From the NCBI GenBank assembly GCA_031287975.1, contig JAITSF010000026.1, forward strand, positions 1-10,319: DNA of 10,319 nucleotides, in the 5' to 3' direction. A program made the translations under genes and the position numbers. Numbering within the stretch: position 1 is the stretch's first letter; every line of letters starts with the position of its first letter. Under the pieces are notes generated by a model. It saw only the letters and a list, made by a program, of their open reading frames with translations. It was not told where the DNA came from and ran no database searches. Positions 5,279 to 10,301 of the stretch are shown here, piece by piece. Origin of the DNA: Candidatus Nomurabacteria bacterium (GTDB lineage Bacteria; Patescibacteriota; Saccharimonadia; Saccharimonadales; Saccharimonadaceae).

Positions 5279-6145
5279 TTATTTGCGGGAAAGTTTTCTC
5301 AAGACCACACCGCTAACGCCAGCCGCTGTTAGGGCAGCGACAGCCGCTGCCAAAGCTGCTGTCGGCAGAGAGCCGCCAGCTTGGCCGGTTTCCGGCGAGG
5401 TTAGGGCTACAGCGCCGCCACCGCCGCCACCGCTACCACCACCAGTCGCGCCGCCGCCATTGTTGCTGCCGCCATTGTTGCCGTTATCACTGTAGGCGAT
5501 CTTGGCGGCATCGTAATTAGCCGCGCCGAAGAAAGCCGCTGGATCAGTTCCGACCGGCAACTCGATCTTGATGGCATCCAGCGTCATTTTGCCGGTCGCC
5601 TCATCAGCGATGGTCTTACCAACATAATCATCAGTTGGATCGCCGAAAGTTACCGTACCGTCAACATAAACCTCGATATTGGGATCGGGCTTAGGCGCGG
5701 CGCCATTGATACCGCCAGCCAAATTTGCTAATGTCCCTAAATAACCCAGGTCGTTCGGAATAATCTCGGCATCGCCGTTAATCTTAATCTTCAGATCTGA
5801 TATGCTGCTAAGTTTATTGCCAAAGGCCGCCAATTCGGCCGCATCATTAGCATCACTTGGATCGAGCGCTGCGATATAGCTATAGAGAGCGATTAAAGCG
5901 CCCCGCACATCGTCAATCGTTGCACCCTCAATACCCAACGTAGTATCGCTGTCGCTAATCAGGGCTTGGCCGCTGGCGCCGTCCAGCATATAGCCACTTG
6001 GATCGCCATCGGTAATCTCTTTCGTAGCGTAAATTGTATTAGTCACCGCATCGTAACTCGAAGCGTAAGTCGCCGCCGGCAACACCGCTACGCCCAGCAA
6101 CGCTGTAACAGCACCAACTGCGGCAATATTTAATATTTTTGTCAT
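5279..6145 (-). CDS. Secreted, probably sortase-anchored surface protein, 288 aa
   Basis: Function unknown, but the architecture is clear. Residues 1-28 form a signal peptide: short basic start MTK, hydrophobic core NIAAVGAVTALLGVAVL, likely cut after ATYA. Residues 29-220 form an acidic, alanine- and aspartate-rich extracellular domain with several GDP or DP turns (DGDPSGY, LDPSDAND, FGDPTDDY); I recognise no enzyme motif. Residues 221-245 are a Gly/Asn-rich linker. The C-terminus is a cell-wall sorting signal: SPETG (250-254, an LPxTG variant), a hydrophobic stretch 260-282, and a basic tail RKLSRK. Sortase would cut in SPETG and attach the protein to the envelope. The start at 6145 is chosen because AAGGGG lies 6 bases before it and the signal peptide begins there; the longer frame to 6196 would overlap the promoter. 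Monocistronic. Its promoter contains nine G. Confidence 0.85.
   Translation of the reverse strand: MTKILNIAAVGAVTALLGVAVLPAATYASSYDAVTNTIYATKEITDGDPSGYMLDGASGQALISDSDTTLGIEGATIDDVRGALIALYSYIAALDPSDANDAAELAAFGNKLSSISDLKIKINGDAEIIPNDLGYLGTLANLAGGINGAAPKPDPNIEVYVDGTVTFGDPTDDYVGKTIADEATGKMTLDAIKIELPVGTDPAAFFGAANYDAAKIAYSDNGNNGGSNNGGGATGGGSGGGGGGAVALTSPETGQAGGSLPTAALAAAVAALTAAGVSGVVLRKLSRK
5453..5482 (-). repeat. 15-bp tandem repeat encoding the Gly/Asn linker
   Basis: Two adjacent copies (5453-5467 and 5468-5482) differ at one base and encode NNGG(S/G) units. They lie in the flexible linker before the sorting signal, next to a run of glycine codons. Gain or loss of a unit keeps the frame, so the linker length could vary between strains. 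Confidence 0.7.
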
Positions 6146-6194
6146 TTTTCCCCTTTCTTGTTTATTATCCATGTTCACCACGAACGTTACCAAC

Positions 6195-6224
6195 ATAATA
6201 ATACCCCCCCCCTCGATTTGTCAA
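6195..6224 (-). promoter_or_regulatory. Promoter of the surface-protein gene with a poly-G spacer
   Basis: On the minus strand a perfect TTGACA (6224-6219) is followed by a spacer containing nine consecutive G (6212-6204) and then TATTATTAT (6203-6195). The triplet repeat offers two TATTAT boxes, at spacings of 15 (6203-6198) and 18 (6200-6195) bases, neither being the optimal 17. The start point would be near 6188-6190, about 45 bases before the start codon. The homopolymer in this position suggests expression that changes with tract length. Confidence 0.75.
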
Positions 6225-6416: not shown

Positions 6417-9400
6417 TTAGATGTTTATTTCGTCGATACTGTCGCCGGCGGTTTGCGCCAGATAGAAATCTTCTTCTGGGATAGCCCCGGTGCCGACTGG
6501 AACTTTTCGACCGATAATAACGTTTTCTTTAAGACCTCGCAGACGGTCAACTCTTCCGGATATAGCGGCGTTGATTAGCACGCGGGTGGTGTCTTGGAAC
6601 GAGGCGGCCGATAGGAAGCTGTCGCTGTAGATCGAGACTTTGGTAATGCCAAGTAGAAGCTGAGTGTAGACCGCTGGTTGGTCGCCGTTTTCGACTAAGC
6701 GGGCGTTTTCTTCGACCACTGCGGCGCGCGACACGATATCGCCAGCCACAAAGGAGCTGTCGCCGGAGTCTTCGATCTGGACACGGCTGAACATTTGCCG
6801 AACGATGATTTCCAGGTGTTTGTCGGCGATGTTTTGACCCTGGGCGGCGTAAATCCGCAAGATGTCATTGATGATATAGCGCTGGGTAGCCGCTACACCT
6901 TTAAGCTCCATCAGCTTGTGCGGGTCGATTGAGCCGGTCGATAGTCGATCGCCAGCCTCGACTTGGTCGCCGTCGTGCAGGATTAGATTACCGGCTTTGT
7001 CGCGCAGCATACGGGCTTCGTGGATTTCGTATTCGATCGGGCTGGCGCTGTCGGGTTGCTTAACGACGATATCGTGGGTTAAGAGCTTGATTTTGCCGTC
7101 AAACGGTGCTACCAGCGGCGCTTTGTCTTTGGCTTCAGCCAAAATCGCGCCAGCTTCGACCATTGCGCCGCTAGGGACTTTGATTTCGTAGCCGTCGTGG
7201 TTGAGACGTTCCTCGACAGTGGCAGTTGGGACAACTTTGACTTTAACTTTGTCGGATTTGCTGTCGGTGGTGATTTGCAATACGCCGGAAATTTCGGCAA
7301 CGGTGGCTTCGCCTTTCGGCTTGCGAGCTTCCAAAAGCTCTTCGACGCGCGGCAGACCTTGAGTGATGTCGCCGGCTTCTGTTGCCTCGCCGCCAGAGTG
7401 GAAAGTCTTCAAAGTCAACTGTGTGCCTGGCTCGCCGACCGATTGCGCGGCGATAACACCGACTGGTTCACGCTCGGCAACCAAATAGCCAGTCGCCATG
7501 TCGATACCATAGCTGCGCTGCGGAATGCCCTGCAACTGTTTCGTCGACAAAATCGACATTATTTTGATTTGACTGATTGACTCGTCGTTTTGGATTTTGT
7601 CGGCGATTTCGCGGGTAATGAGGTCGTGGTCGCCGATGATTTCTCCGCCGTCAGCGCCAACAACCGACTCGGCTGTGTAGCGACCATACAAGCGATCGCC
7701 AAATTCGATCATGGTTTCTTCTGTTTCGTCCCTGGTAATAATATAGCCTGGGTCGTCGCCGCGAACGTCGTCAACTGTGAAAACGTCCTGCGCTACGTCC
7801 ACTAAACGCCGCGTCAGATAGCCAGAGTCAGCGGTTTTCAGCGCGGTGTCGATCGAGCCTTTGCGAGTCGAGCGCGTGTAGAGGAATTCTTCCAGCGGTG
7901 TCAGACCTTTTTTGAAAGACGATTTAACCGGCAGCTCCGATTCGTGACCGAAAGCGTCGACTGTTACGCCGATCATGCCAGTCGCCCATTTAATGTTGGA
8001 CAGGCTACCGCGCGCACCGGAATTTGCTAAAATTGAGATAGCGGTGTCGGTTTTTTGAAGTTGTTCTTGCAGTAAATCTTTGACGGTATCGTCAACTTTC
8101 ATCCAAGTGTCAACAGTGCGGCGGTAGCGTTCGTTTTCGGTCATTAAGCCTTGCTCGGCAGTTTCGTTGATTTTTTCGGTTCGCAGTTCGCCCTCGCGGA
8201 TAACATGGTCGAGTCCGTCGATATCGAAGTAATCGTGTATACCAGTTGACACTGCCGATTGAGTGGCGTGTTCCAGCGCCAGCTCTTTAACTGCGTCGGC
8301 GATTTGAGCGGTGGTTTCAGCGCCGTAGATGTTGAAAACTTTAGCCATGACTTTGTTTAGAGTTTTCTTGGTCATGACATCATTCACAAACCCGAAATCC
8401 GCCGGTAGTTGTTCGTTAAACAGCAGCCGACCAAGCGTGGTTTCGCGAATTTCGCCCTTGTAGGGAGCTTTGATCGGCGTTTGATACAGTATCGCGCCCT
8501 TGTCTTTAGCCATAATGGCTTCGTCAATTGAACTGTAAACATGAACATGTTTAGTCTGGGCCGACGGTTTGACATAAGTTAGATAATATGCTCCTAGCAC
8601 GATGTCTTGATAAATCGACAACACCGGCGCGCCGTCCGACGGCTTGAGCAGGTTGTTGGTGGCGCTCATCAGGTCGCGGGCTTCGGCTTGAGCTTCGACA
8701 CTCAGCGGCAAGTGAACCGCCATTTGGTCGCCGTCAAAGTCGGCGTTAAAACCAGTCGTTACCAGCGGGTGCAGCTGAATCGCCGAACCTTCGATCAGTT
8801 TCGGTTGGAAAGCTTGAATACCCAGCCGGTGCAGAGTCGGCGCGCGGTTTAGTAGCACATATTTGCCCTGAATCACTTCGTCCAGCGCATCCCAAACAAC
8901 AGTGTCGCCGGCGTCAATCAAACGCTGCGCCGACTTAATATTATGAGCTTGTTCCCACTCTAAAAGTTTGTTGACAACAAACGGCCGAAACAGCTCCAAC
9001 GCCATTTTCTTAGGCAGGCCGCATTGTTCAATTTTCAGATCCGGACCCGGCACGATGACGGAGCGACCAGAATAATCCACCCGTTTGCCGAGCAAGTTTT
9101 GGCGAAAACGGCCTTGCTTGCCTTTTAGTAAATCACTCAGCGACTTCAGCCGACGGCGGTTGTTGGTGGAATTTGCCACTCGGTTGCCACGCACCATCGA
9201 GTTGTCGATCAGAGCATCGACAGCTTCTTGCAACATGCGTTTTTCGTTGCGCTGGATAACTTCCGGCGCGTTGAGGTCGGCTAGTTTTTTCAGCCGGTTA
9301 TTGCGGTTGATAACCCGCCGGTACAAATCGTTCAAATCCGAAGTCGCAAAGCGGTCGCCAGAGAGCTGCACCATCGGTCGCAAATCCGGCGGAATCACCG

Positions 9401-10301
9401 GTACAACTGTCAAACACATCGACACTGGGTCGATTTTGGCTGACAAAATCCCTTCCAAAATCTTCAGACGTTTTTGAATTTTCTTCTTGGCTTGACCTTT
9501 GCGAGCCTCGACTTCTTCGGCCACTTCCAAAACCAACTCTTCGAGATTGACATTTTTCAGCAGCTCCATTAGCGCTTCGCCGCCCATGCCGACCTTTATC
9601 AAAGTTTCGTACTGTTCGTCGAGATTGCGATATTCGCTTTCAGAAATCAACGAGCCTTTGGTAAACCGGCTGAGCGTCGATTTCTTTTCTTCGTAACTTT
9701 CGGTTAGGTCGTCTAGTTCTTTGGTCATTTCTTCGGACAGTTTGACGAGATCAACATCTTTGCTTTTAGCGGCGGCTTCGTAGCGCATTTTAATAGCGGT
9801 TTTGCCGGCGTCAAACTCGGCTTCGTTGTCGGCTTGCAGCTGCTCGACTTTGTCCGAGTCAACTTCTAAAATCACATAAGACGCGAAATAAGCAACCCGC
9901 TCTAGTTGTTTGTTAGTCAGCCCCAGCAGCAGCGACATTGGGCTGGGAATGTTACGCATAAACCAAATATGCGCCACTGGTGTGGACAGTTTAATATGCC
10001 CCATACGTTCGCGCCGCACCGAAGACTTCGTTACCAACTCGCCGTTTTTGTCAACTGCCGCTTCGCGCGAGCGAATACCGCGGTGTTTAGTGTCGTTGGG
10101 GTTGATATCTTTGGTTGGACCGAAAATCCGTTCACAAAACAGCCCGTCGCGCTCTGGTTTTTGTGTGCGGTAGTTAATCGTTTCCGGCTTTAAAACCTCG
10201 CCGTAACTCCAATTTCGCATGTCTTGTTCGCTGGCGACGCTTAAGCGCACCGCGTCGAAACTGGAAATATCGCGCCCGCCGTCTTTTGGATAATATGCCA
10301 T
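6417..10301 (-). CDS. rpoC: DNA-directed RNA polymerase subunit beta-prime, 1294 aa
   Basis: Beta-prime forms the clamp and most of the active centre of RNA polymerase. Visible landmarks: the N-terminal clamp (GLFCERIFGPTKD, VRRERMGHIKL), PVIPPDLRPMVQL (304-313), rudder and lid region GRFRQNLLGKRVDYSGRSVIVPGPDL (397-422), and the absolutely conserved Mg-binding NADFDGD (519-525). These are followed by SGARGSLSNIKWATG (761-775), the bridge helix (about 800-830), the trigger loop (GEPGTQLTLKTFHSGG, 956-971) and VEELLEARKP. A charged coiled-coil insert spans about 150-215. Odd points: all eight cysteines of the two zinc sites are replaced at unchanged spacing (P68, D70, V83, N86; V846, T920, P927, S930). 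The bridge helix reads YTRSTRKGS where THGARKGL is usual, and the trigger loop has LK for MR. There are only three cysteines in the protein. The start follows AAGGAGG and directly abuts an upstream stop codon. Confidence 0.97.
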   Translation of the reverse strand: MAYYPKDGGRDISSFDAVRLSVASEQDMRNWSYGEVLKPETINYRTQKPERDGLFCERIFGPTKDINPNDTKHRGIRSREAAVDKNGELVTKSSVRRERMGHIKLSTPVAHIWFMRNIPSPMSLLLGLTNKQLERVAYFASYVILEVDSDKVEQLQADNEAEFDAGKTAIKMRYEAAAKSKDVDLVKLSEEMTKELDDLTESYEEKKSTLSRFTKGSLISESEYRNLDEQYETLIKVGMGGEALMELLKNVNLEELVLEVAEEVEARKGQAKKKIQKRLKILEGILSAKIDPVSMCLTVVPVIPPDLRPMVQLSGDRFATSDLNDLYRRVINRNNRLKKLADLNAPEVIQRNEKRMLQEAVDALIDNSMVRGNRVANSTNNRRRLKSLSDLLKGKQGRFRQNLLGKRVDYSGRSVIVPGPDLKIEQCGLPKKMALELFRPFVVNKLLEWEQAHNIKSAQRLIDAGDTVVWDALDEVIQGKYVLLNRAPTLHRLGIQAFQPKLIEGSAIQLHPLVTTGFNADFDGDQMAVHLPLSVEAQAEARDLMSATNNLLKPSDGAPVLSIYQDIVLGAYYLTYVKPSAQTKHVHVYSSIDEAIMAKDKGAILYQTPIKAPYKGEIRETTLGRLLFNEQLPADFGFVNDVMTKKTLNKVMAKVFNIYGAETTAQIADAVKELALEHATQSAVSTGIHDYFDIDGLDHVIREGELRTEKINETAEQGLMTENERYRRTVDTWMKVDDTVKDLLQEQLQKTDTAISILANSGARGSLSNIKWATGMIGVTVDAFGHESELPVKSSFKKGLTPLEEFLYTRSTRKGSIDTALKTADSGYLTRRLVDVAQDVFTVDDVRGDDPGYIITRDETEETMIEFGDRLYGRYTAESVVGADGGEIIGDHDLITREIADKIQNDESISQIKIMSILSTKQLQGIPQRSYGIDMATGYLVAEREPVGVIAAQSVGEPGTQLTLKTFHSGGEATEAGDITQGLPRVEELLEARKPKGEATVAEISGVLQITTDSKSDKVKVKVVPTATVEERLNHDGYEIKVPSGAMVEAGAILAEAKDKAPLVAPFDGKIKLLTHDIVVKQPDSASPIEYEIHEARMLRDKAGNLILHDGDQVEAGDRLSTGSIDPHKLMELKGVAATQRYIINDILRIYAAQGQNIADKHLEIIVRQMFSRVQIEDSGDSSFVAGDIVSRAAVVEENARLVENGDQPAVYTQLLLGITKVSIYSDSFLSAASFQDTTRVLINAAISGRVDRLRGLKENVIIGRKVPVGTGAIPEEDFYLAQTAGDSIDEINI

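Follow-up and report, generated by a model that had tools for sequence, protein, structure and literature searches.

The 10,319-nucleotide stretch analysed here (the window; contig JAITSF010000026.1) carries on its minus strand a complete rpoC gene, which encodes the 1294-residue beta-prime subunit of RNA polymerase in an unbroken frame of 1294 codons. The protein contains none of the eight cysteines that serve as zinc ligands in this subunit, with 0/4 present in the first zinc finger (finger 1) and 0/4 in the second zinc site (site 2). A preliminary description of this DNA had claimed as much, and alignment to relatives and to PDB chains bears it out. The loss of the finger 1 ligands is clade-wide and of single origin, with site 2 lost alongside. 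The clade is the order of the window, probably Saccharimonadales (placed by NCBI in class Saccharimonadia), as the names of relatives suggest. The features are listed below, with residue frequencies from 51 RpoCs of the order and 78 outside it.

6417..10301, minus strand: rpoC, beta-prime, 1294 residues, the single copy found, recognised by its frame and Pfam domains
9993..10121, minus strand: finger 1 without zinc ligands, residues 61-103, with DINPND...AAVDKNGELV instead of the CxC...CDKCG knuckles
10098..10100, minus strand: codon of P68, first finger 1 ligand position (P in 48/51 of the order, C in 78/78 outside)
10092..10094, minus strand: codon of D70, second finger 1 ligand position (D in 51/51 of the order)
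10053..10055, minus strand: codon of V83, third finger 1 ligand position (V in 42, I in 8 and R in 1 of 51)
10044..10046, minus strand: codon of N86, fourth finger 1 ligand position (N in 43/51 of the order)
8727..8747, minus strand: NADFDGD catalytic motif, intact, residues 519-525
7722..7799, minus strand: first part of site 2, residues 835-860, with V846 or R847 as the equivalent of C814
7458..7565, minus strand: second part of site 2, residues 913-948, with T920, P927 and S930 at three ligand positions

Identity of the protein and its former ligand positions

All five Pfam RNA_pol_Rpb1 domains (1-5) are matched, four of them well over cut-off and domain 4 with 27.7 bits at a cut-off of 24.8. 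Together with the NADFDGD motif, which is intact as previously described, they identify the protein as a bacterial beta-prime. It does not belong to the zinc-binding form of this subunit, either at finger 1 or at site 2, and corresponds to a zinc-free (C-minus) form, being the same protein in the same place with its ligands replaced throughout the lineage. The genome of origin (G000), a 506-kb draft in 78 contigs, gave a single rpoC match; a second, zinc-binding copy that would permit a switch between paralogues was not found in this 70% complete genome.

The zinc ligands of E. coli beta-prime, which we take to be (i) C70, C72, C85, and C88 and (ii) C814, C888, C895, and C898, provide the reference positions. 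Finger 1 of the window protein reads GPTKDINPNDTKHRGIRSREAAVDKNGELVTKSSVRRERMGHI, and a 58-residue stretch that contains it shows no gap against RpoC chains of zinc type in the three PDB alignments displayed; all PDB hits to finger 1 are subunits of RNA polymerase. The preliminary description was thus right that the finger keeps its length, although the span from PTKD to MGHI that it gave as 44 residues is 42 residues in both proteins. Its assignment of the finger 1 ligand positions to P68, D70, V83, and N86 and of the last three site 2 positions to T920, P927, and S930 is confirmed. At the equivalent of C814 it had placed V846. The cysteine is indeed absent there, but the exact residue is less certain: the position falls on V846 or R847 because one extra residue adjoins it in the window copy, and the alignment of multiple RpoCs puts R847 there.

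Distribution, origin, and conservation of the cysteine-free state

The zinc sites were scored in 129 full-length RpoCs. The order supplied 51 of them, from 15 families (L001-L030, 19 of L065-L084, L143, and L144), the remaining orders of its class 20 (L045-L064), and further classes of the phylum 58 (L085-L142). Finger 1 has its four cysteines complete in 0/51, 20/20, and 58/58 of these groups, respectively, and no ligand cysteine is left there in any RpoC of the order. For the complete site 2 the corresponding figures are 0/51, 20/20, and 57/58, so that all eight cysteines are kept in 77 of the 78 RpoCs outside the order. Within it, 39 of the 51 have no site 2 cysteine, nine have one, and three have two. 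The 129 omit the short in-order L077 and 14 named loci (L031-L044), and all 15 are cysteine-free in finger 1. This is the consistent clade-wide state that the preliminary description had named as support for its reading, and no close relative with the cysteines, its main refuting result, was found in the order.

The labels of the 14 named loci are Candidatus Saccharibacteria (nine), Candidatus Nomurabacteria (three), and only bacterium (two). L031 and L032 belong to public records of metagenome-assembled genomes labelled Candidatus Nomurabacteria, probably by mislabelling. Outside the order, L102 (G430, family f64, of another class) has lost three of the four site 2 cysteines alone and keeps finger 1. 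A site 2 loss throughout f64 was rejected, as its member G251 keeps these cysteines.

A wider search used a DNA pattern for the second knuckle of finger 1, [VI]-x-C-D-[K, R and a few others]-C-G-V, in 392 genomes of the class. It matched 0/360 genomes of the order versus 28/32 of the others. Among the 28, whose locations were checked in all but G469, the match in G116 falls at no known rpoC. The four misses outside the order are G117 and G129, which lack an rpoC match, G120, whose rpoC is split and lacks this part, and G470, which lay outside the rpoC search. Read backwards as a control, the pattern matched 2/392 genomes (G521 and G123). Every listed genome of the order gave a match in the class-wide search for rpoC.

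A FastTree phylogeny of all 129 sequences, built after masking of the zinc segments, recovers the order as one clade (support 100) and implies a single change in finger 1 and two in site 2. With IQ-TREE, a quick tree of 38 rows likewise gives one clade (100) and places family f18 (L045 and L046; 100) as its sister. The RpoCs of f18 keep all eight cysteines, and the loss therefore falls on the order's stem, later than its divergence from f18.

The substitute for the zinc finger, P-x-D ... V-D-K-N-G, is conserved in the order. The former ligand positions hold the residues listed above, with V or I together filling position 83 in 50/51, and D65, G75, R77, R79, E80, A82, D84, G87, V90, and T91 are also present in 51/51. 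Because these substitute residues are conserved, finger 1 appears to have been rebuilt, which is redesign and not decay. For finger 1 (residues 65-94), pairwise identity in the order averages 0.85, versus 0.69 for the whole RpoC; outside the order, the values are 0.82 and 0.55. Constraint on finger 1 is therefore strong in both states and not raised in the order. The two parts of site 2 have identities of 0.58 and 0.66 in the order (0.45 and 0.52 outside). Relative to the whole protein, these stretches are no looser than in the zinc-bearing relatives, and their ligand positions hold varied residues. An AlphaFold2 model of residues 8-345, built with 14 sequences, has a mean predicted local distance difference test score (pLDDT) of 61.9, with values below 50 over nearly all of finger 1. 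It hints at a hairpin around DKNG (residues 80-83 and 89-92), where the pLDDT is mostly below 50.

Other zinc proteins and the cysteine content of the order

Zinc proteins of gene expression were surveyed in 25 genomes (13 of the order, eight of other orders, and four of other classes). Ribosomal protein L36 has no cysteine in 13/13 genomes of the order and the zinc form in all 11 found outside (none in G101). Its CxxC is replaced by SPDD (SEDD in G111) and a later cysteine by asparagine. The last zinc ligand of L36 is also lost (His to Asn) in the four sampled genomes of family f1 (L36 loci L167, L163, L165, and L156) and kept as histidine in the nine others of the order. L31 is zinc-free in the 12/12 found in the order (none in G000) and in the zinc form in the 11/11 found outside (none in G108). 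The CxxC pair of S14 is absent from 13/13 genomes of the order, nine of which keep one cysteine. Outside, 9/11 matches over cut-off are of the zinc form, G105 and G113 are zinc-free, and G101 has a sub-cutoff match only. Since the sister genome G102 has zinc forms of all three proteins, the changes in L36, L31, and S14 would, judged by this one genome, fall on the stem where RpoC changed.

L33 of the order has no cysteine in the matched stretch in 11/13 genomes (G107 has three and G133 has one), and its CxxC pair is present in 2/8 genomes of other orders and 4/4 of other classes. L32 lacks cysteine after the likely start in all 11 candidates of the order (none found in G000 and G111), which are weakly identified because all lie below the family cut-off; it is cysteine-free in the 7/7 found in other orders (none in G102) and in the zinc form in 4/4 of other classes. 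S4 has no cysteine in its N-terminal stretch in the 11/11 read in the order and 6/6 in other orders, while in other classes G341 has four and G230 and G285 have none.

Primase (DnaG) lacks all four zinc ligands in 13/13 genomes of the order. The zinc ribbon is kept in 8/11 of the DnaG proteins found outside, including 4/4 of other classes, and is lost in 3/7 of those found in other orders (G101, G105, and G113, of which G113 keeps the histidine; DnaG was not found in G102). The change in the order is CPFH...CFGC to SPF...DFSS (loci L284-L307), and nearly the same residues occur, apparently separately, in G101, G105, and G113 (f17, f21, and f23). DNA ligase LigA over cut-off with its four-cysteine (Cys4) site was found in 5/13 genomes of the order, 2/8 of other orders, and 4/4 of other classes. 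In the other eight genomes of the order its zinc domain gave no match over cut-off; either the gene or this domain may be absent, or the domain may lack cysteines. RecR, read in one genome each, keeps one of its four zinc-finger cysteines in G111 and has them in G112. A motif search for Adk in 20 stretches found it only in G230. The possibility that all zinc losses fell on one branch was rejected: the sampled class as a whole has zinc-free S4 and L32, and the RpoC tree requires two or more losses of the DnaG ribbon if it was never regained.

Cysteine content was taken from evenly spaced stretches of four genomes, two of the order (G015 and G111) and two outside (G102 and G112), with 38 kb of the G102 sample masked and open frames called by a simple script (391, 349, 338, and 382). 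Cysteine makes up 0.88% of residues in G015 and 0.62% in G111, compared with 0.62% in G102 and 0.64% in G112. Two CxxC motifs occur in 4 and 7 proteins of the order versus 11 and 12 outside, or 3.7 and 6.4 versus 11.4 and 10.9 per 100,000 residues. Among reciprocal best hits, redox motifs included, the CxxC cysteines of G102 are kept in 34/36 cases in G111 and 10/12 in G015, and those of G112 in 23/28 and 4/4, respectively. G111 keeps these cysteines in UvrA (10/10), PilB (T2SSE; 4/4), and prepilin peptidase (4/4) as well as in glutaredoxin, PheRS, and others, and MsrB has four cysteines in each of G111 and G015. The counterpart of G111 PilB in G015 has 0/4 of the PilB cysteines and may be a paralogue. 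Non-ligand cysteines per RpoC average 4.06 (the order), 4.70 (other orders), and 5.22 (other classes).

Cysteine content is thus unreduced in the sampled genomes and the UvrA cysteines are kept, and the loss is therefore selective. In the sampled data it affects RNA polymerase, primase, and proteins of the ribosome, plus RecR in a single genome. General cysteine avoidance finds no support in the cysteine content of the sampled genomes, and a zinc-free proteome is rejected by the cysteines that G111 keeps in UvrA, PilB, and prepilin peptidase.

Between rpoC and rpsL, at 5279-6196 on the minus strand of the window, lies a gene for a 305-residue Gly/Asn-rich protein that looks by eye to be secreted or surface-anchored. 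It has no Pfam match, and tblastn matched only its own locus (L001) among the gathered loci, which include L031, the nearest relative with long flanks.

Interpretation and comparison with known systems

The explanation that we favour, at a probability of about two in three, is that RNA polymerase abandoned its structural zinc on the order's stem as part of a selective removal of zinc from core gene expression, likely to spare zinc. Finger 1 keeps its length and place, and an Asn-Pro-x-Asp turn would replace CxC and an Asp-Lys-Asn-Gly hairpin turn CxxC, both holding without metal. D70 and N86, which occupy two former ligand places on opposite knuckles, could bond directly where the zinc sat, and P68 and V83 could pack together. 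Site 2 lost its ligands with less uniform replacements. The wider removal would include L36, L31, and S14 on the same stem; DnaG, L33, L32, and S4 are zinc-free as well. Abundant proteins of gene expression hold much of the zinc of a cell, and a small host-dependent cell would gain by not having to supply it. The metal-free state, the support of the fold, and the selective cause are all what we infer from the sequences. The odds lean slightly towards a broader statement: that the whole order runs transcription, translation, and priming with almost no structural zinc (both RpoC sites, L31, L32, L36, S4, S14, mostly L33, and DnaG), with RpoC and L36 sharing a like solution, a turn ending in Asp that faces an Asn.

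The preliminary description had proposed an adaptation to zinc limitation. This idea gains weight because the stem that saw the RpoC change would also have seen L36, L31, and S14 lose their ligands, because DnaG and most L33 lack zinc sites too, and because cysteine content is unreduced in the sampled genomes, but the limitation itself is still surmised. Zinc is not avoided everywhere, as UvrA, PilB, and prepilin peptidase of G111 keep their CxxC cysteines.

Several points weigh against the proposed zinc sparing. (i) The losses were not simultaneous, as the zinc-free state of S4 and L32 extends across the sampled class and zinc was lost from DnaG and some S14 in other orders. (ii) Cysteines persist in places, with one or two at site 2 in 12/51 RpoCs of the order, one in 9/13 S14, three in L33 of G107, and the Cys4 of LigA in 5/13 genomes; UvrA, PilB, and prepilin peptidase keep theirs in G111, and MsrB does so in G111 and G015. 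(iii) The margin by which finger 1 conservation exceeds that of the whole protein is larger still outside the order than within it. (iv) The AlphaFold2 model of residues 8-345 is too uncertain at finger 1 to rely on. (v) The absence of the knuckle pattern alone says nothing of the presence of rpoC in each of the 360 genomes. (vi) As far as is known, Alphaproteobacteria keep zinc in RpoC. Phyla such as this one commonly have ribosomal proteins in zinc-free form (PMC3087516), so that ribosomal losses alone do not explain the loss from RpoC.

Selection could instead have acted on thiols and not on zinc, cysteines having been purged because oxidants eject the zinc or because cysteine is costly to an auxotroph. 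Zinc-bound thiols are sensitive to oxidants, and the non-ligand cysteines of RpoC are slightly fewer in the order (4.06 vs 4.70 and 5.22). Purging is nonetheless improbable: cysteine content is not lower in the two sampled genomes of the order, G111 keeps the cysteines of UvrA, glutaredoxin, PheRS, and other CxxC proteins, and the 12 RpoCs with one or two site 2 cysteines retain thiols that could not form a full site.

Two further accounts are less probable still, and about equally so. In the first, finger 1 binds Mg, Mn, or Ca through the oxygen ligands D70, E80, D84, and E88. D70, E80, and D84 are present in 51/51 RpoCs of the order and E88 in 47/51; D70, E80, and E88 are new to the order, and D70 sits at a former ligand position. 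The same residues could equally form salt bridges with the invariant R77 and R79, no loop resembles a metal motif that we recognise, and the AlphaFold2 model is too uncertain at finger 1 for distances to be read. In the second, the zinc domains became dispensable, for example after the loss of factors that bind them, and then drifted neutrally. The varied residues at the site 2 ligand positions, the leftover cysteines in 12/51, and the lone loss of three of four site 2 cysteines in L102, whose relative G251 keeps them, all fit such decay. It is at odds with finger 1, which in the order is more conserved than the whole protein and has invariant residues of its own, with the relative conservation of site 2, which about equals that of zinc-bearing relatives, and with the parallel changes in L36, L31, S14, and DnaG. 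An assembly, frame, or contamination error in the window copy, which a fragmented draft of 78 contigs at 70% completeness might invite, is rejected as having next to no probability, since the 1294-codon frame is unbroken and relatives show the same state in 51/51 RpoCs of the order, some from single-contig genomes (G111, G058, and G072).

If its RNA polymerase is indeed free of zinc, the order would be the first cellular lineage known to us with a natural multisubunit enzyme of this kind. The zinc domain of the enzyme has reportedly been the subject of assembly and termination studies (Markov 1999 and King 2004, known to us through a citing paper). A search of the open-access literature, with most subscription journals outside its scope, gave no report of a zinc-free RpoC among the matches listed. 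Finger 1 of E. coli (the zinc-binding domain) is placed at the RNA exit channel, where it binds putRNA (PMC9378689); Rho-dependent RNA release is intact in a Thermus RNA polymerase with finger 1 deleted (PMC9908020); and zinc is not loaded into RpoC in a zinc-transport mutant of Cupriavidus (PMC11112998). The last source also states that survival without zinc is known for no organism, its example of a zinc-dependent enzyme being RNA polymerase (PMC11112998). A clade without both sites offers natural, conserved designs for a zinc-free finger 1 and makes the old question of the purpose of zinc in RNA polymerase directly testable. It also ties metal economy to how host-dependent bacteria live, and some of these have been cultured, Candidatus Nanosynbacter lyticus with its Schaalia host among them (PMC13059738).

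The window protein resembles other bacterial RpoCs in its domain order, its catalytic motif, and the length and place of finger 1, and differs from them in lacking the eight zinc ligands and in a finger 1 rebuilt around P68, D70, V83, and N86. The cysteine-free form of a zinc protein is already known as a kind, and its extension to RNA polymerase is, to our knowledge, new. In the C-minus ribosomal proteins (L31, L33, L36, S14, and S4), a zinc form likewise gives way to a cysteine-free form in whole lineages; such forms are widespread and have been tied to zinc economy (PMC3087516). The order differs from these cases in that the change reaches RNA polymerase and is a replacement in place, with one rpoC found and no second copy beside a zinc form. 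The Thermus delta-ZBD enzyme, in which the zinc-binding domain (ZBD) is deleted, is a parallel, being an RNA polymerase that is active in an assay without the zinc of finger 1 (PMC9908020). Unlike that laboratory deletion, the order possesses a natural, conserved, and full-length substitute.

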